From Chloroflexota bacterium (GTDB taxonomy: Bacteria > Chloroflexota > UBA6077 > JACCZL01), in NCBI GenBank assembly GCA_020845495.1, contig JADLFM010000194.1:1-7335 (forward strand): a DNA stretch of 7,335 nucleotides, in the 5' to 3' direction. This document shows, in pieces, positions 1 through 6,916 of this stretch (positions are counted from its first letter, which is position 1; each line of letters begins with the position of its first letter). Below the pieces are notes generated by a model, which ran no database searches, was not told the origin of the DNA, and saw nothing but the letters and a program-made list of their open reading frames with translations. A program made the position numbers and the translations under genes.

Positions 1-2074
1 AGTTGCCCATGAGCTGCATGGTCGCCGGCACGAGCAGCAGGCGAACGACCGTGGCATCCACGAACACGGCTACGGCGAGCCCCAGCCCGAACTCCTTCAC
101 GACCCGCTGGTCGTTCAGGACGAAGCTGAGGAAGACCACGATCATGATCGTCGCCGCGGCCGTGATCACGCTGGCAGTCGAGGCCAGTCCGTGCGCCACC
201 GACTGCGCGTTGTCCTTGGTGCGCAGGTATTCTTCCCGAATCCGGCTCACCAGGAAGACCTCGTAATCCATCGAAAGCCCGAACAGGACCGCGAAGAGCA
301 TCATCGGCAGGAACGACTCGACCGGGCCGGTCTTGTCGGCGCCAGTGAGGTCCAGCAACCAACCCCACTCGAACACCGCCACCACAACTCCATAGGCCGC
401 GCCGATCGAGAGCAGGTTCATCAGCGCGGCCTTGAACGCGATGACGAGCGAGCGAAACACCATGGTCAACAGCAGGAAGCTGATTCCGACCACGATGGCA
501 AAGAACAGCGGCAGCCGTGCGCCGATCCGGTCGGCGATGTCGATGTAGCGCGCCGTCGTCCCTGCGATGTACACGTCGGCGTCGCTGCCGTCCATCGCGC
601 CAGGGATCGTCTCGTCACGCAGGCGGTGCACGAGTTCGGTCGTCGCGGCGTCCTGCGGTGCGCTCTCGGGGATGACGGAGAAAATGGTGAGGCGGCCGTC
701 GGGGCTCGTCAGCGCCTGTCCGACCGAGGCCACACCGTCTTCGTCTGAGATGGCCAGCTGGAGTTGCTGGAGCTCCGCCTCGCTGCCGGCGTCGACAACG
801 ATCTGCAGCGGGCCGTTCGCGCCGGGGCCAAACGCCTCCGCCGTCAGGTCGTAGGCGCGTCGGGTGGTCGAGGAGGTGGGGTTATTGCCGGCGTCAGCCG
901 AACCGAGGCGGATGTCGAGCAGGGGGATGCTCAGGACGAGCAGCACCAGGGTGCTCAAGCCAAAGAACACATAGGGCCGCCGCATGATGCGCTGGCCGAG
1001 CGCGTACCAGGGGCTCCCTTCATGGTGGAGGTCGGGTTCAGTCCGGCGGCGACCTTTGAGGGAGAGGATTCGCGTGCCAGCAAGTCCCAAGAGCGCGGGC
1101 AGCAGCACAATCGCCACGAGCACAGCGAGCGCGACCATCAGGGCCGCGGCCACTCCGATCCACCCGACGAAGGGGATGCCCATGAACGATAGTCCGAGCA
1201 GCGACGTGATGACGACGACGCCCGCGAAGATAACGGACTTCCCGGCGGTCGCGAGCGCGGTCCCGGCCGCTGCCTCGATCGACATGCCGCGAGCAACGTT
1301 CTCGCGGTGCCGGGCAACGATGAAGAGCGCGTAGTCGATTCCGACGCCGAGTCCCAGCATTGCCGCGATGTTCGGCCCGAACTTACTGAGCTCGACTACC
1401 GACGTCATTGCGAAGACCGCGGCGAAGCCGGCAGCCAGCCCGAACAGTGCCGTGCCAACCGGCAACGCGGTGGGGACGAGCGTGCGGAAGAGGACGTAAA
1501 GGATCACGAACGCGGCGATGAGCCCGAGCACCGTCGATTCGTTCGGCCCCTCGTGCTCTTGGGCGGAAGCGACAGGGCCGCCGAACTCCACCTGGAGACC
1601 AGCCTCCGCTGCGGCGGCCATCGCCGCCTCGACTCCGTCCACCTGCTCGGTTGGCACCTGATCGGCGCTCTCCGAGAACTGCACCCGGACGATCCCTGTC
1701 GTGCCGTCAGCCGAGAGGAGTCCCGACTGCGGCGCGAACGGCGATGCCACCGAGGTGACCCCGGACACGGAGGAGACATTGGCGACGAGCGTGTCGATCA
1801 CGGCGCGCGAGCCCGGGTCAGAGATTCCGTTGGGCGAATACAGGACGATGTCGCCGTAGTCGCCCGATCGCTGCGGAAACGCGTCTTCGAGCAGGGACAC
1901 TGCCTCCTGCGATTCCGCACCGGGTATGTCGAGGCTGCTCACCGTCCCTTCATTCAGTGAGCGAGCGGCCAGCGCCAGGAACACAACGACGACAACCGAT
2001 GCGCCGAGCACGTACCAGCGCTTCCGCACTGCGAATGCGCCCCATCGTTCTAGGAGAGTGACTCTTCGGATCAT
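1..2074 (-). CDS. MMPL-family (RND superfamily) transporter, C-terminus cut by window edge
   Basis: Inner-membrane, proton-driven exporter of the MmpL/YdfJ type, probably for lipids or hydrophobic compounds; the substrate cannot be read from sequence. The frame is open for 691 codons from the ATG at 2074 to the left edge without a break. A cytoplasmic start (MIRRVTLLERW) leads into TM1 (about 21-37), then an extracytoplasmic loop (about 40-178), then a five-helix bundle (about 181-330). A second helix (about 368-386), a second loop (to about 518) and a second bundle (about 521-685) repeat this plan, the internal duplication typical of RND proteins. Both proton-relay motifs are present: GIDYALF (Asp247-Tyr248) and SMDYEVF (Asp603-Tyr604). 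Family members are usually about 700-750 residues, so only a short tail is missing. The start is supported by GGAGG (2081-2085) with a 6-base spacer. It is divergent from the Crp/Fnr gene. Confidence 0.95.
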   Translation of the reverse strand, partial: MIRRVTLLERWGAFAVRKRWYVLGASVVVVVFLALAARSLNEGTVSSLDIPGAESQEAVSLLEDAFPQRSGDYGDIVLYSPNGISDPGSRAVIDTLVANVSSVSGVTSVASPFAPQSGLLSADGTTGIVRVQFSESADQVPTEQVDGVEAAMAAAAEAGLQVEFGGPVASAQEHEGPNESTVLGLIAAFVILYVLFRTLVPTALPVGTALFGLAAGFAAVFAMTSVVELSKFGPNIAAMLGLGVGIDYALFIVARHRENVARGMSIEAAAGTALATAGKSVIFAGVVVITSLLGLSFMGIPFVGWIGVAAALMVALAVLVAIVLLPALLGLAGTRILSLKGRRRTEPDLHHEGSPWYALGQRIMRRPYVFFGLSTLVLLVLSIPLLDIRLGSADAGNNPTSSTTRRAYDLTAEAFGPGANGPLQIVVDAGSEAELQQLQLAISDEDGVASVGQALTSPDGRLTIFSVIPESAPQDAATTELVHRLRDETIPGAMDGSDADVYIAGTTARYIDIADRIGARLPLFFAIVVGISFLLLTMVFRSLVIAFKAALMNLLSIGAAYGVVVAVFEWGWLLDLTGADKTGPVESFLPMMLFAVLFGLSMDYEVFLVSRIREEYLRTKDNAQSVAHGLASTASVITAAATIMIVVFLSFVLNDQRVVKEFGLGLAVAVFVDATVVRLLLVPATMQLMGN

Positions 2075-2085: not shown

Positions 2086-2121
2086 AGTACTGTCATGGTG
2101 GCGGCTGTCGGCACGCGAATC

Positions 2122-2137
2122 TCTGACTTTTGTCGTG
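2122..2137. promoter_or_regulatory. Degenerate Crp/Fnr-type box in the divergent intergenic region
   Basis: TCTGACTTTTGTCGTG matches the perfect box at 3276-3291 (TGTGACATTTGTCACA) at 11 of 16 positions, including the symmetric GAC-N4-GTC core. Its centre is at 2129.5. That is 55.5 bases upstream of both the proposed regulator start (2185) and, on the other strand, the MMPL ATG. It could serve autoregulation or transporter control. The right half (GTCGTG) is poor, so this is an inference from similarity and position only. Confidence 0.4.
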
Positions 2138-2184: not shown

Positions 2185-2871
2185 GTGCCCGCCCAGAACC
2201 CCCACGAGGAGCTCAAGGATCGGCTGGGGGCGTTCTCGTTGTTCCAGGGGCTTGCCGGAGAGACGCTCGCTCTCCTGGCCGGTGCGAGCCGTCGCCGTGA
2301 GTGCGCCCCTGGCGAGGTCGTGTTTATGGAGGGGGAGCCGACCCAAGGTCTCTACATCCTCGAGTCCGGCTGGGTCCGGGTGGTGAAGACGTCCGAGCAG
2401 GGCCGCGAGCAGGTCCTGCAGTTCGTGGGGCCGGGCGAAGCCTTCAACACCGTGAGCATCTTCACGCGGGGACTGAGCCCCGCCACCGCGGTCGCACTCG
2501 AGCCGAGCACCGCCTGGTTGGTCCCGCGGGAAATCATACTCCGCCTCTTGCAGGAACGGCCAGAATTTGCGCAGAGGGTGCTTGAGAACATGGCCGAGCG
2601 CATGCTCCACTTGGTTGGCCTGGTGGCCGACCTCTCGCTGCGGACTGTCAGCGAGAGGCTGGCCGATCTCATCCTTGCGCAGGCGGAAGGCGGTGTGCTG
2701 AACCGCCCGAAATGGTTCACAATCGCCGAGCTCGCGGCGCGTCTCGGGACCGTCCCCGATGTCGTCCAGCGGGCCATCGGCAAATTCCAGTCCGATGGCC
2801 TTTTGGACGTTAGCCGTCGAGAAATCCGCGTGCTCGACGAGGCCGGGCTTCGTCAGCTGGCGCGCCGCTGA
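2185..2871 (+). CDS. Crp/Fnr-family transcriptional regulator
   Basis: Cytoplasmic DNA-binding regulator of 228 residues, usual for the family. Residues about 13-125 form a cyclic-nucleotide-binding-type beta-roll with the GEAFNTVSIF segment (84-93). A long dimerisation helix (about 125-155) and a winged helix-turn-helix (about 179-215) follow. The cAMP-contacting Arg-Ser/Thr pair appears replaced by Ser98-Pro99, so cAMP is an unlikely ligand. There is only one cysteine (Cys40), so an FNR-type 4Fe-4S cluster is excluded. In the recognition helix (TVPDVVQR) the usual Glu is Asp192 while Arg196 is kept. The signal sensed is unknown; haem, NO or a redox cue would fit the DNR/NNR-like GExF pattern but is not shown. 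GTG 2185 is preferred to in-frame ATG 2095: it gives normal length, lies just after a -10 element, and avoids a 30-residue extension with no domain. It is divergent from the MMPL gene. Confidence 0.9.
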   Translation: MPAQNPHEELKDRLGAFSLFQGLAGETLALLAGASRRRECAPGEVVFMEGEPTQGLYILESGWVRVVKTSEQGREQVLQFVGPGEAFNTVSIFTRGLSPATAVALEPSTAWLVPREIILRLLQERPEFAQRVLENMAERMLHLVGLVADLSLRTVSERLADLILAQAEGGVLNRPKWFTIAELAARLGTVPDVVQRAIGKFQSDGLLDVSRREIRVLDEAGLRQLARR

Positions 2872-3275
2872 GCGCGAGTCGCACATCTGCCGGCGGCGGA
2901 CCGCGAGCGAGACCCCGCCCCGACAGGATCGGCTTCCTGCGGTAGTTCCCCTCTCGGCAGTGCAAGCAGAACGTCTTCTGGTCATGGCAAACCCTCCGGC
3001 CCAGTGCCCCAATGGTCAGTGGCGGGAGTCGCTCGCACTCTGACTTTTCTCGGCTTACCGAGGGCAGCGATCGGTGTGCGTGAGGCCAGGAGGCGGCCGC
3101 GCATCGCCCATCACGACGCCCGCTCAGAGCAGCCCAGCCGTGAATCGTAGGAGTCATTGATCAACTGACGCCGCTCCTGGGTGGACAGTCGGATACCAGC
3201 GCGCCAGTCCACAAGCTACGAACCCTGACCCGATTCGAACACCCGTACCGGGTTCGGGGCGTTAGGGAAGAGGGT

Positions 3276-3291
3276 TGTGACATTTGTCACA
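3276..3291. promoter_or_regulatory. Perfect palindromic Crp/Fnr-type operator
   Basis: TGTGACATTTGTCACA has 7-bp perfect arms (TGTGACA/TGTCACA) around TT. It matches the classical CRP consensus TGTGA-N6-TCACA completely. It lies 405 bases downstream of a Crp/Fnr gene. Its centre (3283.5) is at -41.5 relative to the start site predicted from the -10 candidate at 3313-3318, the class II activator position. That the neighbouring regulator binds it is an inference, since its recognition helix is not the canonical RE..R of CRP. Confidence 0.8.
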
Positions 3292-3312
3292 TCCGTATCC
3301 ACAGACGGTGAT

Positions 3313-3318
3313 TAGCAT
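3313..3318 (+). promoter_or_regulatory. Candidate -10 element of the Crp-type promoter
   Basis: TAGCAT matches TATAAT at 4 of 6 positions. Taken as -12 to -7 it predicts a start at 3325, leaving a 24-base leader before TTG 3349 that contains the Shine-Dalgarno. No -35 hexamer is needed or seen, because the palindrome occupies that position, as expected at an activator-dependent class II promoter. A weak hexamer by itself. Confidence 0.45.
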
Positions 3319-3335
3319 CGCGCTGCCAGGGGCTC

Positions 3336-3340
3336 AGGAG
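3336..3340 (+). promoter_or_regulatory. Ribosome binding site deciding a TTG start
   Basis: AGGAG lies 8 bases before TTG 3349. It supports TTG over the internal ATG at residue 31, which would remove half of the first membrane helix. Confidence 0.65.
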
Positions 3341-3348
3341 AATCGGCC

Positions 3349-3813
3349 TTGTCCGTTGCACCACCAGCACCAAAGTCACTCTCCGCACTGGCAGCGAGGC
3401 CTTTGGGACGCGTCAACATCGCGGTCGGCCTCTGGTACATGGCCGGGTTTATGGTGTACGGCTTTGTGCTGATTTACCTGCGTGACTTCGCGCCTGACAA
3501 AGAAGCGTGGATAGCTGAGAGTCTTGATGGTGACCACTTCGAGGCGCGCCTCGCCCACGTCCACGGGAACCTGTTTGCCCTCCTCAACATTACGTTCGGA
3601 TTCCTGATGTCAAAGCTTCCAGTGCGCGCTGATCTCGGGGCGTGGGCGTCCCGGCTGATACTGGCGGGTCTGCTCATGCCAATCGGGATTCTCGCGGAGG
3701 TATACCTTAACTTACCGCCGGTGCTCGTCCTTGCTGGCGGTATCTCAATCCTGGCGGGCACGATCTTGCTCGGGTGGGCAGTTCTCACCTCGGGCGAAGT
3801 CCGAACCGGCTAG
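3349..3813 (+). CDS. Small four-helix membrane protein with HVHGN motif (haem-copper oxidase subunit I-like?)
   Basis: 154-residue integral membrane protein. Four hydrophobic segments are seen at about 22-44, 67-89, 100-120 and 123-147. A polar loop (about 45-65, DFAPDKEAWIAES) separates the first two. Helix 2 begins with LAHVHGNLFALLN, placing His70 and His72 at the membrane face, with His63 just before. The layout, one helix then a loop then HxHxN opening the second helix, resembles short stand-alone proteins related to the N-terminal part of cbb3/NO-reductase subunit I (HAHLNLLG-type) and the DUF2871-like class. Those histidines may bind haem or metal, but this is inference. The gene lies alone behind a strong Crp/Fnr-type box, which fits a role in respiration or a redox/NO response. 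It looks more AT-rich than its neighbours. It starts at TTG with a good ribosome site. Coding is near certain; function is weak. Confidence 0.85.
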   Translation: MSVAPPAPKSLSALAARPLGRVNIAVGLWYMAGFMVYGFVLIYLRDFAPDKEAWIAESLDGDHFEARLAHVHGNLFALLNITFGFLMSKLPVRADLGAWASRLILAGLLMPIGILAEVYLNLPPVLVLAGGISILAGTILLGWAVLTSGEVRTG

Positions 3814-3973
3814 GGCTCTAGCAGTTCGCGGGAATTGGGAGTTGGAGCGAGTTGAGAGCGAATTTGGAACAGCCAGCCCCAGATTGGAACGGGCGGAGCG
3901 GAATCCTGGAACACTGAGGGAACGCCCATTCGCAAGCTGACTCATCACGGCCTCCTGGCCGCTGGAGTCAGAC
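3814..3973. promoter_or_regulatory. Leader of the T4SS operon with GGAAC direct repeats
   Basis: This 160-base gap must hold the operon promoter unless the operon reads through from the upstream gene; no clear -35/-10 pair was found. TTGGAAC occurs at 3864-3870 and 3884-3890, exactly 20 bases apart, with CTGGAAC at 3906-3912 and GGGAAC at 3918-3923. GGAAC is also the -35 core of many ECF sigma promoters, but no matching CGTC-type -10 lies 16-17 bases downstream. A small hairpin, CGGCC-TCCT-GGCCG (3948-3961), ends just before the Shine-Dalgarno GGAG (3964-3967), which is 6 bases from ATG 3974. Confidence 0.4.
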
Positions 3974-5206
3974 ATGCGCATCCTCACCCTCACCGCCTTT
4001 GTACTGGGATTGGCCTGCGCGCTGGTGGTTGGCGCAACTTCCGCCGCCGCGCAGGAAGCCGACGACACGCTGGATGGGCTGTCGTCGGCCGGCATCCCGC
4101 TCCTCAACAGTCCGCCTGCGCCAGCCCCGCAGCAGGTCCCACCTGGCCAGCCTGGCCCTGAAGGTCAGCCGCCGCCTGACACGCTGGTCGACCTCCCGAT
4201 CCCCGACCCGACCGACTGGATTCCCAATCCCCTGGACTGGCTTCCCGGCGGCCTCAACCCCGTCAACTGGGCGAAAGACATCGTCAACGCGGTGTTCACG
4301 CTCATCGGCCAGGCGATGCTGGAGGCGATCCGCGGGTTCGTCGACTGGGCGCTGGGCATGGGCGGCTCATCGCTCAACTTCGTCACGCGCACCCCGGCGG
4401 AAGGCACCTACGACAGCCCGACGGTCCGCAGCCTCTACGACTTCTCCCGCGCCATCGTCAACGTCGCCCTCGCGGTCGTCGTCATGTGGGGCGGTTTCAA
4501 CGTCATCATCAAGGAGCACACGAGGTCGCCCTACCACGAGGCGATGGAGCTCCTCCCGCGCGTCATCCTCGCCGCGCTCGCCGCCAACCTGACGCTTGAG
4601 TTCGCGCGGATGCTGATCGACATCAACAACGCCCTCGCCGCCGGCGTCGGTGATGTCGGGCTCCCCGGGTACGACCAGGCGACACCCTCGCAGGAAGGCC
4701 TCGCGCTCATCTTCACCGCCGTCGCCTACGGCATCGTGGCGATCCTCCTCGTCTTCCAGATGCTGATGCGCCTCGCCCTCCTGGCGATGCTCATCGTCCT
4801 CGGGCCAATTGCTGCACTGCTGTGGGTGCTGCCCCAGACCCAGCAGTGGACGCGCTGGTGGACCGACCTCTTCGTGATCACTGTCTTCCAGCAGGCCGTC
4901 CAGGTCATGGTGCTGGCGCTCGGCACGGCGCTGATGGTCGAACTGACCCCCGGCAGTGTCTCCAACGCCCTGCTGACGATGCTTCTTGGTCTCGCGGTCT
5001 GCTGGCTGACCCTCAAGGTCCCTTCGCTCTTGCGTTCGGCCCGCAGCCAAGCCGGCATCACCAACGTCCTCACGTTCGCCATGGCCACCCACGCACTTGG
5101 CGCGATGGCCGGAGCGGGCCGAGCCGGTGCTGCTGCGGGCGGCGCAGGGGCCGCTAGCGCTGGAGGTGGCGGGGCAGCTCCGCGGCCAGCGGCGGGAAGG
5201 GCTTAA
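3974..5206 (+). CDS. TrbL/VirB6-like polytopic T4SS channel protein
   Basis: Membrane component expected to form part of the translocation channel of a type IV secretion or conjugation machine. The 410 residues begin with a signal peptide (about 1-26, ending ATSAAAQ). A Pro-rich segment (about 47-80) and a stretch with repeated DW/NW pairs (Trp82, Trp89, Trp99) follow. About six membrane helices then run over roughly 158-178, 193-212, 243-264, 266-288, 296-320 and 332-347. The GPIAALLWVLPQTQQWTRWW segment (277-296), followed by FQQAVQVMVLALG, is the typical TrbL/VirB6 core, where a short polar loop sits between helices. The tail (about 376-410) is Ala/Gly-rich and low in complexity. GGAG six bases before the ATG supports the start. 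First gene of a four-gene operon; its TAA overlaps the next gene's Shine-Dalgarno. Family assignment rests on topology and this motif. Confidence 0.85.
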   Translation: MRILTLTAFVLGLACALVVGATSAAAQEADDTLDGLSSAGIPLLNSPPAPAPQQVPPGQPGPEGQPPPDTLVDLPIPDPTDWIPNPLDWLPGGLNPVNWAKDIVNAVFTLIGQAMLEAIRGFVDWALGMGGSSLNFVTRTPAEGTYDSPTVRSLYDFSRAIVNVALAVVVMWGGFNVIIKEHTRSPYHEAMELLPRVILAALAANLTLEFARMLIDINNALAAGVGDVGLPGYDQATPSQEGLALIFTAVAYGIVAILLVFQMLMRLALLAMLIVLGPIAALLWVLPQTQQWTRWWTDLFVITVFQQAVQVMVLALGTALMVELTPGSVSNALLTMLLGLAVCWLTLKVPSLLRSARSQAGITNVLTFAMATHALGAMAGAGRAGAAAGGAGAASAGGGGAAPRPAAGRA

Positions 5207-5211
5207 GGAGG
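5205..5211 (+). promoter_or_regulatory. Ribosome binding site deciding the hydrolase GTG start
   Basis: AAGGAGG shares its first two bases with the TAA stop of the upstream gene and is 5 bases before GTG 5217. This selects GTG over an in-frame ATG at 5097 inside the upstream gene. It implies that terminating ribosomes reinitiate directly. Confidence 0.85.
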
Positions 5212-5216
5212 ACGCC

Positions 5217-6152
5217 GTGAACGCGAACCCACCCACCGGCGACATCTTCGGCAGCGTCGGGAGCGAGGGCCTCAAGGTCGCGGGCGTTGTCGGCGTCGTC
5301 ATGCTCGCACCGATGCTCTTCGTGATGGCCGCGCTTGGCGGCACTCCGGGCATCGCCCAGTCTCCAGTTTCCGCCGCGGCGCTCACCGAGATTCCTGCCG
5401 AGCACCTCGCTGTCATGCAACAGGTTGCAGCTGCGACGGGCGTCCCCTGGCAGGTCCTGGCGGCCATCGCCAAGGTCGAGTCGGGCTTCGGCGCGAACAT
5501 GGGCCCGAGCTCGGCCGGCGCCCTCGGATACTGCCAGTTCATGCCGGCGACCTGGGCCCATTACGGCGTTGATGGCGACGGCGACGGTGTGGCCGACCCG
5601 TTCAACTACCACGACTGCCTGCCCGCCGCTGCCCATCTCCTCCTCAACAGCGGAGCGCCCGGTGACCTCCGCAGCGCGCTCTACGCGTACAACCACTCCT
5701 GGTCCTACGTGGACCACGTCCTCAGCATCGCCACCAGCTACGGCTACCTGGACCCGGCGGGCATCCGAGCCCAGGCGGTCGCGCTCGCGCGATCCCGGCT
5801 CGGACTGCCGTATGTCTGGGGCGCGGCGGGGCCGGAGAGCTTCGACTGTAGCGGCCTGACGCAGTGGGTCTACGCCCAGCTCGGCATCTCCCTGCCGCGC
5901 ACATCGCAGGCGCAGTTCAACGCGACGATGCCCGTGGCGCTCGAGTTCCTCCAGCCGGGCGACCTCCTCTTCTACGAGGACACCTACCCCTCGCACGAAC
6001 GCATAACCCACGTCGGCATCTACGCCGGGAACGGCGTCGTGATCATGGCCACACAGCCCGGCGAGTTCGTGAAAGAGGTGTCGCTGGACAACCCCTACTG
6101 GGCCAGGCATTTCGCCAGTGCCGGTCGCCCGGTGAAAGCACCGATCGCATGA
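5217..6152 (+). CDS. Bifunctional cell-wall hydrolase: lytic transglycosylase + NlpC/P60 (VirB1-like)
   Basis: Membrane-anchored, 311-residue peptidoglycan hydrolase that likely opens the wall for the T4SS, as VirB1 does in Gram-negatives and Tn916 Orf14/CwlT does in Gram-positives. A single N-terminal helix (about 20-40) places the rest outside. The transglycosylase domain (about 60-175) has AKVESGFG with catalytic Glu88, then SSAGALGYCQFMPATW, DGDGDGVADPFNYHDC and ALYAYNHSWSYVDHV. The NlpC/P60 domain (about 182-305) has FDCSGL (nucleophile Cys211) and THVGIYAGNG (His265). The third catalytic position, 12 residues after the His, is Met277 rather than the usual His/Asn/Gln/Glu. The start is GTG 5217 with AAGGAGG five bases upstream. 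ATG 5097 would give an untypical 40-residue extension inside the upstream gene. The TGA stop overlaps the next gene's ATG (ATGA). Confidence 0.93.
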   Translation: MNANPPTGDIFGSVGSEGLKVAGVVGVVMLAPMLFVMAALGGTPGIAQSPVSAAALTEIPAEHLAVMQQVAAATGVPWQVLAAIAKVESGFGANMGPSSAGALGYCQFMPATWAHYGVDGDGDGVADPFNYHDCLPAAAHLLLNSGAPGDLRSALYAYNHSWSYVDHVLSIATSYGYLDPAGIRAQAVALARSRLGLPYVWGAAGPESFDCSGLTQWVYAQLGISLPRTSQAQFNATMPVALEFLQPGDLLFYEDTYPSHERITHVGIYAGNGVVIMATQPGEFVKEVSLDNPYWARHFASAGRPVKAPIA

Positions 6153-6667
6153 CCGGCGGCCGCGGACTGATGGTCATCCTCGGCGGCCTCGCGGCCACCC
6201 TGCTGGTGATCGCCATCGTGAGCGGCTGGCAGGGCGCGAACCGTCTCCGTGGCCAGGGCGAGGGTATGAGCGAGGTGGAGGAAGCTGCCCGCCTCTTCGT
6301 TGAGGCCTACGGGACCTTCGACTTTCGCGAGCCCACTGCCTACCGCGAGCGGCTGCTGAGCCTGAGCACCGGCGACGTACACGCTGCGGTCGCCGCCTCA
6401 CAGGTCGATCCGAGCGCTCTCGGCCAGCAGCAGACCATGACGACGGGCACGGTCTCGATCCAGGTCACCGCCTACTCCGACACCGAGGCAACCGTGTCAG
6501 CGACCACAGAGCAGACCCGGCGCGCCGTTGACTCGGCGACTGGACAGCTCCGCGAGCAGCGGCTCCGTCAGCACGTGACCTGCCGGCTCGTTCGCGTCGA
6601 CAGTCGCTGGCTCGTGACCGAGTTCCGGCTGCGGTCGGAAGAACCCCTTCAGAACACCGGCAGATAG
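6149..6667 (+). CDS. Single-pass NTF2-like protein, probable VirB8/TcpC-type T4SS component
   Basis: 172-residue protein with one N-terminal helix (about 7-25, LMVILGGLAATLLVIAIVSG) and a soluble domain outside the membrane. Residues about 41-160 follow an NTF2-like plan. A helix (SEVEEAARLFVEAYGTFDF), a second helical part with YRERLLSLSTGDV, then strands TGTVSIQVTAYS, EATVSATTEQTRR and LRQHVTCRLVRV, and finally RWLVTEFRLR. This matches the shape of VirB8 and Gram-positive TcpC/TraM, scaffold proteins of T4SS. No catalytic motif is seen, and sequence-level family evidence is weak; position in the operon supports the call. The ATG overlaps the upstream stop as ATGA and has no good Shine-Dalgarno, so translation probably depends on coupling. 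Longer in-frame starts upstream lie inside the hydrolase gene and are rejected. An alternative is an unrelated lipid- or substrate-binding NTF2-like protein. Confidence 0.8.
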   Translation: MTGGRGLMVILGGLAATLLVIAIVSGWQGANRLRGQGEGMSEVEEAARLFVEAYGTFDFREPTAYRERLLSLSTGDVHAAVAASQVDPSALGQQQTMTTGTVSIQVTAYSDTEATVSATTEQTRRAVDSATGQLREQRLRQHVTCRLVRVDSRWLVTEFRLRSEEPLQNTGR

Positions 6668-6676
6668 GAGGCCGAC

Positions 6677-6916
6677 GTGATGGAACAGATCAACACCCTC
6701 TTCGAGAACCTGCTCAACATCGGCATGGGCGTCGGCGCCGCCGTGGCCGCGTTCTTCGTGATGTGGGGAGCCTTCCTCTATATGAGCGCCGCCGGCAGTC
6801 CCCACCAGATGGAGCGCGGTAAGTCGGCGATCGTTAACGCCCTGATCGGCTTCTCGATCGTCCTGCTGGCCCGGGTGATCGCTGGGATGATCCAGGATTC
6901 GATTGGATCGCCGTAG
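6677..6916 (+). CDS. VirB2/TrbC-like T4SS pilin-type small membrane protein
   Basis: 79 residues from GTG 6677, or 78 from the adjacent ATG 6680; AGGAGG (6666-6671) sits 5 or 8 bases before them and overlaps the upstream TAG stop. Two membrane helices are seen (about 15-37, IGMGVGAAVAAFFVMWGAFLY, and 53-74, VNALIGFSIVLLARVIAGMI). They are joined by a short loop, SAAGSPHQMERGKSA, with the positive charges next to helix 2. The helix, G/S-x-P/Q loop with Lys/Arg, helix plan is that of VirB2/TrbC and the T4SS pilin family of monoderms, where the protein forms the pilus or a channel lining. No cleavable signal peptide precedes helix 1, unlike classical VirB2. Last gene of the operon and placed after the VirB6, hydrolase and VirB8-like genes, whereas VirB2 is usually near the front. 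Family call is by topology and context. Confidence 0.82.
   Translation: MMEQINTLFENLLNIGMGVGAAVAAFFVMWGAFLYMSAAGSPHQMERGKSAIVNALIGFSIVLLARVIAGMIQDSIGSP

Follow-up and report, generated by a model that had tools for sequence, protein, structure and literature searches.

Genes and features of the window

In this work we have analysed a 7,335-nucleotide stretch of Chloroflexota DNA, which we call the window throughout. A gene for a Crp/Fnr-family regulator lies divergent to one for an MMPL-family exporter and is followed by the gene of a small membrane protein, in front of which stands a 16-bp palindrome (Table 1).

Table 1. Positions of the genes, boxes and promoter elements of the window, with the basis of each assignment.
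Feature	Position	Strand	Basis and remarks
MMPL-family exporter	2-2074	-	domain search; divergent from crp
CACCAT	2095-2100	-	weak -10-like hexamer, MMPL side, 29 bases from centre of 2124 box
TGACTTTTGTCG	2124-2135		predicted operator of the neighbouring Crp's type, in divergent MMPL/crp intergenic region
Crp/Fnr-family regulator	2185-2871	+	domain search, helix alignment; recognition helix GTVPDVVQR (Pro-Asp-...-Arg)
CTCTGACTTTTCTCGGCT	3038-3055	+	imperfect box of the neighbouring Crp's type, one core mismatch; 12.4 on neighbour-clade matrix
TGTGACATTTGTCACA	3276-3291	+	16-bp palindrome; predicted Crp/Fnr class II activator site
TAGCAT	3313-3318	+	predicted -10 hexamer; first base 29 bases from palindrome centre
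AGGAG	3336-3340	+	probable ribosome site, read from sequence; upstream of TTG 3349
154-aa membrane protein (MEM)	3349-3813	+	target gene; homologue search, alignment

The membrane protein MEM had been called an orphan in a preliminary description of this DNA, a status ruled out by its 3135 homologues at E <= 0.001. The residues invariant in an alignment of 61 sequences include H63, E65, H70, H72, G73 and N74. Searches of Pfam and NCBIfam returned no match to the protein, only sub-threshold rows at chance level, and the best PDB hit by sequence had an E of 2.4. Its predicted structure is a helical bundle with generic fold matches only, and these matches were excluded from the evidence. The family is patchily distributed, being found in 6/393 genomes in the class of our reference genome G002 and 6/396 in the class of G003 (two of them weak); orthologues occur in 2/38 genomes in the order of G002 and 3/400 in the phylum. 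About 160 bases past the MEM gene, at 3974-6916, lie TrbL-type, SLT plus NlpC/P60 and T4SS pilin genes, the start of a conjugation-type secretion module. Comparison of the window with plasmids and with Rfam gave no matches, and that with viral contigs no useful result.

The palindrome has perfect arms of 7 bp, TGTGACA (3276-3282) and TGTCACA (3285-3291), and its centre falls between 3283 and 3284, as the preliminary description had it. The full pattern TGTGACN4GTCACA matches once in the window against 0.01 expected from 200 dinucleotide shuffles. The looser TGTGAN6TCACA with up to 2 mismatches yields 3 matches for 2.16 expected, which is near chance, so that only the exact site at 3276-3291 is special. 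Its inner YGACWTTTGTCR has two copies in the window against 0.01 expected, at 3278-3289 and again at 2124-2135, a second box absent from the earlier description. TAGCAT agrees with TATAAT at 4/6 positions, and the start site that it predicts, at 3325, would put the palindrome centre at -41.5; the site thus resembles the class II promoters of E. coli CRP, described as carrying TGTGA-N6-TCACA centred at -41.5 (PMC5957442). A promoter scan of 2800-4000 found no sigma-70-type promoter with both hexamers, which is the expectation if an activator compensates for the missing -35. The ribosome site and the TTG start follow in the order first proposed. With the distance of 29 bases from centre to TAGCAT, a spacing common to relatives, the class II position that had been claimed is supported as far as the predicted start allows, and the designation of 3276-3291 as a putative Crp/Fnr class II activator site for the MEM gene holds well. 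We infer that a dimeric Crp/Fnr protein binds here, touching RNA polymerase where it sits on the weak promoter with TAGCAT, and that it would thereby switch on the membrane protein gene.

Conservation and spacing of the box in relatives

Named genomes were scanned and gave 128 relatives, of which the best 80 loci were kept. By their record titles 19 of the loci belong to Chloroflexota groups and 61 to others, and all locus counts given here are raw, with kinship among loci ignored. The core GAC-W4-GTC stands upstream of the MEM orthologue or of its presumed operon in 15/19 Chloroflexota loci, at 20 sites, compared with a mean of 0.74 loci (maximum 4) and 0.76 sites (maximum 4) in 100 shuffles. 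Among the other loci it was found in 1/61, where 50 shuffles gave a mean of 1.9. Two further Chloroflexota loci (L017, L024) have CCGACTTGAGTCGG or CCGACTTGAGTCGT in its place, and in another two (L009, L033) no box was found upstream of the membrane protein gene. In each of the 17 Chloroflexota loci with a box at the head of the MEM gene or of its module, that box has the type found beside the neighbouring regulator's relatives (the neighbour type). Box and gene are between about 100 and 3150 bases apart, and the operon structure is therefore inferred.

Relatives also link the membrane protein gene to the regulator. A Crp gene of the neighbouring kind lies within the fetched stretch in 13/19 Chloroflexota loci, with the helix GTVPDV in 12 and GTVTDV in L017, and L001 and L002, the relatives closest to the window, encode their Crp orthologue (60 and 57%) at another place in the genome. 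Among the other loci a Crp match of any kind at E <= 1e-4 was seen in 1/61, at 27% identity. In the order of G002, 7/38 genomes have a Crp of this type (E <= 1e-60).

The position of the box is conserved together with its core. Among 40 box orientations listed by hand, TAnnnT begins 29 bases past the centre in 19 and 30 bases past it in 3, and the other 63 offsets examined gave 8 matches. All 22 cases at 29 or 30 belong to the 26 boxes which face the target gene or operon, against none of the 14 which face crp or MMPL. These orientations, like the 31 sites of the matrix described below, were hand-picked from the box listing; those passed over include CGACCTGGGTCG and CGACCTGAGTCG in L104/L117 and the site in L118. 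Without hand selection TAnnnT at 29 or 30 was found in 19/62 W4 and 3/164 non-W4 orientations; in this control two contigs (L009/L124, L033/L123) were each counted twice, which inflates the non-W4 sites only. Could the palindrome of the window nevertheless have arisen by chance or lack a function? With 4/6 bases TAGCAT is poor as a -10, but the palindrome was expected 0.01 times, its 29-base spacing is common to 18 other target-facing boxes, and the promoters of L001 and L002 have a box at the same place, so that we regard this explanation as very improbable.

According to the preliminary description, conservation of the box upstream of orthologues would support its proposal. For the core this is what we found, in 15/19 Chloroflexota loci, but the outer bases do not follow: L001 and L002 carry the neighbour-type box CGACTTTTGTCA, not the TGTGAC spelling, at the same promoter position, 30 bases before TAGGTT. 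This suggests that the promoter of the window was re-spelled at a fixed position, and it may be read by both kinds of protein.

Boxes of a related kind occur outside the Chloroflexota. GTGAC-N4-GTCAC with at least 9/10 bases precedes the MEM family gene in 9/61 non-Chloroflexota loci (mononucleotide shuffles: mean 0.18, maximum 1), all of them titled as Bacteroidota groups and 7 as Flavobacteriales; at 8/10 bases the count is 11 loci against a shuffle mean of 2.77 and maximum of 11. In 8/9 of these Bacteroidota loci TAnnTTTG or TAnTTTG, which we take to be the Bacteroidota promoter element, comes next, at 30 or 31 bases. A gene of one TetR cluster is present in 6/9 of them (25/80 loci overall), which makes the TetR protein a rival regulator there; an RND pump cluster is represented in 16/80 loci and 1/9 Bacteroidota box loci. 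In most of these loci (L051, L052, L057, L062, L064, L067, L069, L072, L075) we also observed, after the box, a TTAGTGTTCACTTA stretch that resembles a TetR operator, together with a promoter-like element. In Maritimibacter and Sinisalibacter (L045, L058, L066) the MEM family gene is preceded by GTTATA-N4-TATAAC palindromes, with two copies in L058 and L066.

Genome-wide matches to CCGACWWWWGTCGG, present in 13/20 genomes, were rejected as a regulon count: many CCGACTTAAGTCGG matches sit in a repeated palindrome without TAnnnT at 29. This repeat, often TAC-edged and frequently near apparent gene starts, was seen at L166, L167, L172 and L175-L180 (G794, G795, G796, G799). In G800 and G803, the matches that precede flagellin-like genes (assigned by eye) have no TAnnnT at 29 either.

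Which regulator fits the spelling of the palindrome

That a Crp/Fnr gene adjoins the target, as had been noted before, is borne out by domain matches above cut-off (PF00027, 89.9 bits; PF13545, 42.7 bits). The best NCBIfam match of the neighbouring regulator is FtrB (NF006901), and at 74.8 bits, far under the cut-off of 211, we rejected this identity. Its helix segment VPDVVQR aligns with SRETVNK of the actinobacterial Crp structure 3i54, onto whose positions we assume that the E. coli residue numbering (180, 181, 185) can be transferred. So numbered, Pro and Asp replace the Arg180 and Glu181 which, with Arg185, mark a reader of TGTGA. Thus, unlike in E. coli CRP, the Arg-Glu pair associated with TGTGA is lacking in the regulator next to the predicted 3276 site. 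Arg180 is described as going with G at the third base of the box, and TTGAC boxes as going with Pro or Ser at that residue (PMC1274295).

What, then, is the box of the neighbouring Crp? Beside the Crp genes of its clade the palindrome is typically CCGACAAAAGTCGG and most often ACCCGACAAAAGTCGGGG. C precedes GAC at a frequency of 0.82 (matrix with pseudocounts). T stands there in 4/62 half-sites (L001, L002 and two L006 sites), as well as in the 2124 box of the window, and never on both sides; the clade is in this respect unlike the TTGAC/TTGCG type of DNR, NnrR and HcpR. The divergent MMPL/crp pair recurs in five relative genomes (G001, G002, G300, G305, G315; 59-66% identity), with GAC-W4-GTC between the genes in G001, G002 (two), G305 and G315 and GAC-N4-GTC sites of different core in G300. 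Four other MMPL-facing boxes have CACGAT, CACGCT, CACGCT and CATGCT at 29, that is, CAnnnT and not TAnnnT, and on the crp side of the MMPL/crp boxes nothing is conserved at 29. The 2124-2135 box is therefore likely the better candidate operator for the neighbouring Crp, although its promoter logic is harder to make out than at the other targets. From there this Pro-Asp-...-Arg protein would regulate the MMPL gene and its own.

A matrix of 31 neighbour-clade sites (leave-one-out minimum 13.5) was compared with a matrix of 14 TGTGAC sites from 14/20 loci, L182, L187 and L197-L200 being omitted by judgement. The 2124 box scores 13.9 on the former and 5.5 on the latter. The 3276 box scores 7.6 on the neighbour-clade matrix, below all 31 sites, and 28.1 on the TGTGAC matrix, equal to the best leave-one-out value of that matrix, which favours the TGTGAC spelling because its sites were collected with the pattern GTGACN4GTCAC. 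Together with the Pro-Asp helix of the neighbour, these scores suggest that the spelling of the 3276 box points to a reader of TGTGA.

A candidate for such a reader is a paralogue (L194:2507-3211) whose helix, GSVREVVSR, has the Arg-Glu-...-Arg of predicted TGTGA readers and which is present in 20/38 genomes of the order of G002 (E <= 1e-40). At least 11/12 bases of TGTGACN4GTCACA are found upstream of 8/20 of its orthologues, L201-L203 among the 8 having also fed the TGTGAC matrix; for the other 12/20 genes the best box has only 6-10 of the 12 bases. The TGTGAC class of boxes would accordingly belong, at least in part, to this paralogue. TAnnnT lies at 30 in 3/14 TGTGAC-class sites (L183, L188, L191) and at 29 in none, and class II use by the paralogue is thus weakly shown. 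In L190, L192 and L194 the paralogue is divergent from a molybdopterin oxidoreductase-like gene (in L194 TIGR03479, 320 bits, below cut-off). A third Crp paralogue, with GTGAC-N4-GTCAC upstream, was seen in L189, L193, L195 and L196; in L189, L193 and L195 its gene and a transporter-like one, identified by eye, diverge, with TATGAT 38 bases on.

On balance, we lean towards reading the 3276 box as a class II activator site used by the Arg-Glu-...-Arg paralogue and not by the neighbour, the helix GSVREVVSR fitting TGTGAC-N4-GTCACA. The promoter would then have been re-spelled in place from the box of one Crp paralogue to that of another. Against this stand the end of the neighbouring gene, only 477 bases before the TTG, and the neighbour type of the box in all 17 Chloroflexota loci with a box heading MEM or its module, and one may ask whether the neighbour itself binds and activates here, its clade tolerating T and G outside the GAC core. 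Its box occupies this class II position in both L001 and L002 and lies upstream in 15/19 loci, GTCAT occurs on one side in L001 and L002, the 3276 box has kept the GAC-W4-GTC core, and a matrix of the closest sites (8 relatives and the window's 2124 box) still gives it 10.7. However, the members of that closest-sites matrix score 18.1-21.5, the 7.6 lies under every site of the class, none of the 31 sites has T before GAC in both halves, and the Pro-Asp helix misfits TGTGA by the rule in PMC1274295; we consider the neighbour an unlikely reader. The dedicated regulator-target pair of the preliminary description survives only in part: the MEM gene is indeed linked to this Crp clade in 13/19 Chloroflexota loci, but the low score and the helix separate the window's own box from it. 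Might both proteins use the site, the neighbour weakly and the TGTGA reader strongly, so that two signals meet at one promoter? The 3276 box does have the core TGAC-W4-GTCA common to both classes, flanked by the outer bases of the second, and a near-site of the neighbour type, possibly a decayed box, lies upstream at 3038; but no collected site scores well on both matrices, the highest cross-scores being 11.0 and 11.5, and such double use seems to us quite unlikely.

Gene module, signal and significance

In relatives the MEM gene belongs to a module that also comprises genes for a cupin, ferredoxin, cytochromes and a 400-aa NnrS-like membrane protein. Ferredoxin, cupin and the NnrS-like protein are encoded behind neighbour-type boxes, as is, at one locus (L011), a nirS-type protein of 675 aa that contains a cytochrome d1 domain and whose box has no TAnnnT at 29 or 30 on the nirS side. 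The 400-aa partner carries H-x-H-[AG]-N, as does MEM; against the NnrS model (PF05940, cut-off 28) its homologue P0319 scores 25.4 bits, and seven other members scanned gave no NnrS row. From this module we would guess that nitrogen oxides or low oxygen are the likeliest signal. In L118 (at 9657; G301), some 4 kb away from the membrane protein gene, CGGTGACTTTAGTCACTG stands in front of genes for a DUF2249 protein and a hemerythrin.

The system resembles the HcpR, DNR and NnrR regulons as described in PMC1274295: their regulators are likewise Crp/Fnr proteins, in part with Pro or Ser at 180, the boxes of HcpR have a GAC-N4-GTC core, and ferredoxins, cytochrome c, nnrS and nir genes are among the targets. 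It differs from them in phylum and in the neighbour-clade box, where CCGACAAAAGTCGG takes the place of TTGACN4GTCAA or TTGCGN4CGCAA, and the genes named in the loci include no hcp. Among the best literature matches no title or abstract concerned the operator of a Chloroflexota Crp/Fnr protein, and a study of Crp/Fnr proteins in a wastewater community (PMC8510549) does not have the word Chloroflexi in its main text.

Our analysis proposes an operator, CCGACAAAAGTCGG, and a small set of targets for a Chloroflexota Crp/Fnr clade, and it points out a frequent companion gene which has no family model. It also indicates that helix and DNA box differ together, and adjacency alone can suggest the wrong regulator. 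More tentatively, Crp/Fnr paralogues might exchange a promoter without moving it, CGAC-N4-GTCR giving way to TGTGAC-N4-GTCACA while the geometry is kept, and the HxHxN protein may perhaps be a widespread companion of NnrS-like proteins in dealing with nitrogen oxides, under the control of Crp/Fnr regulators.
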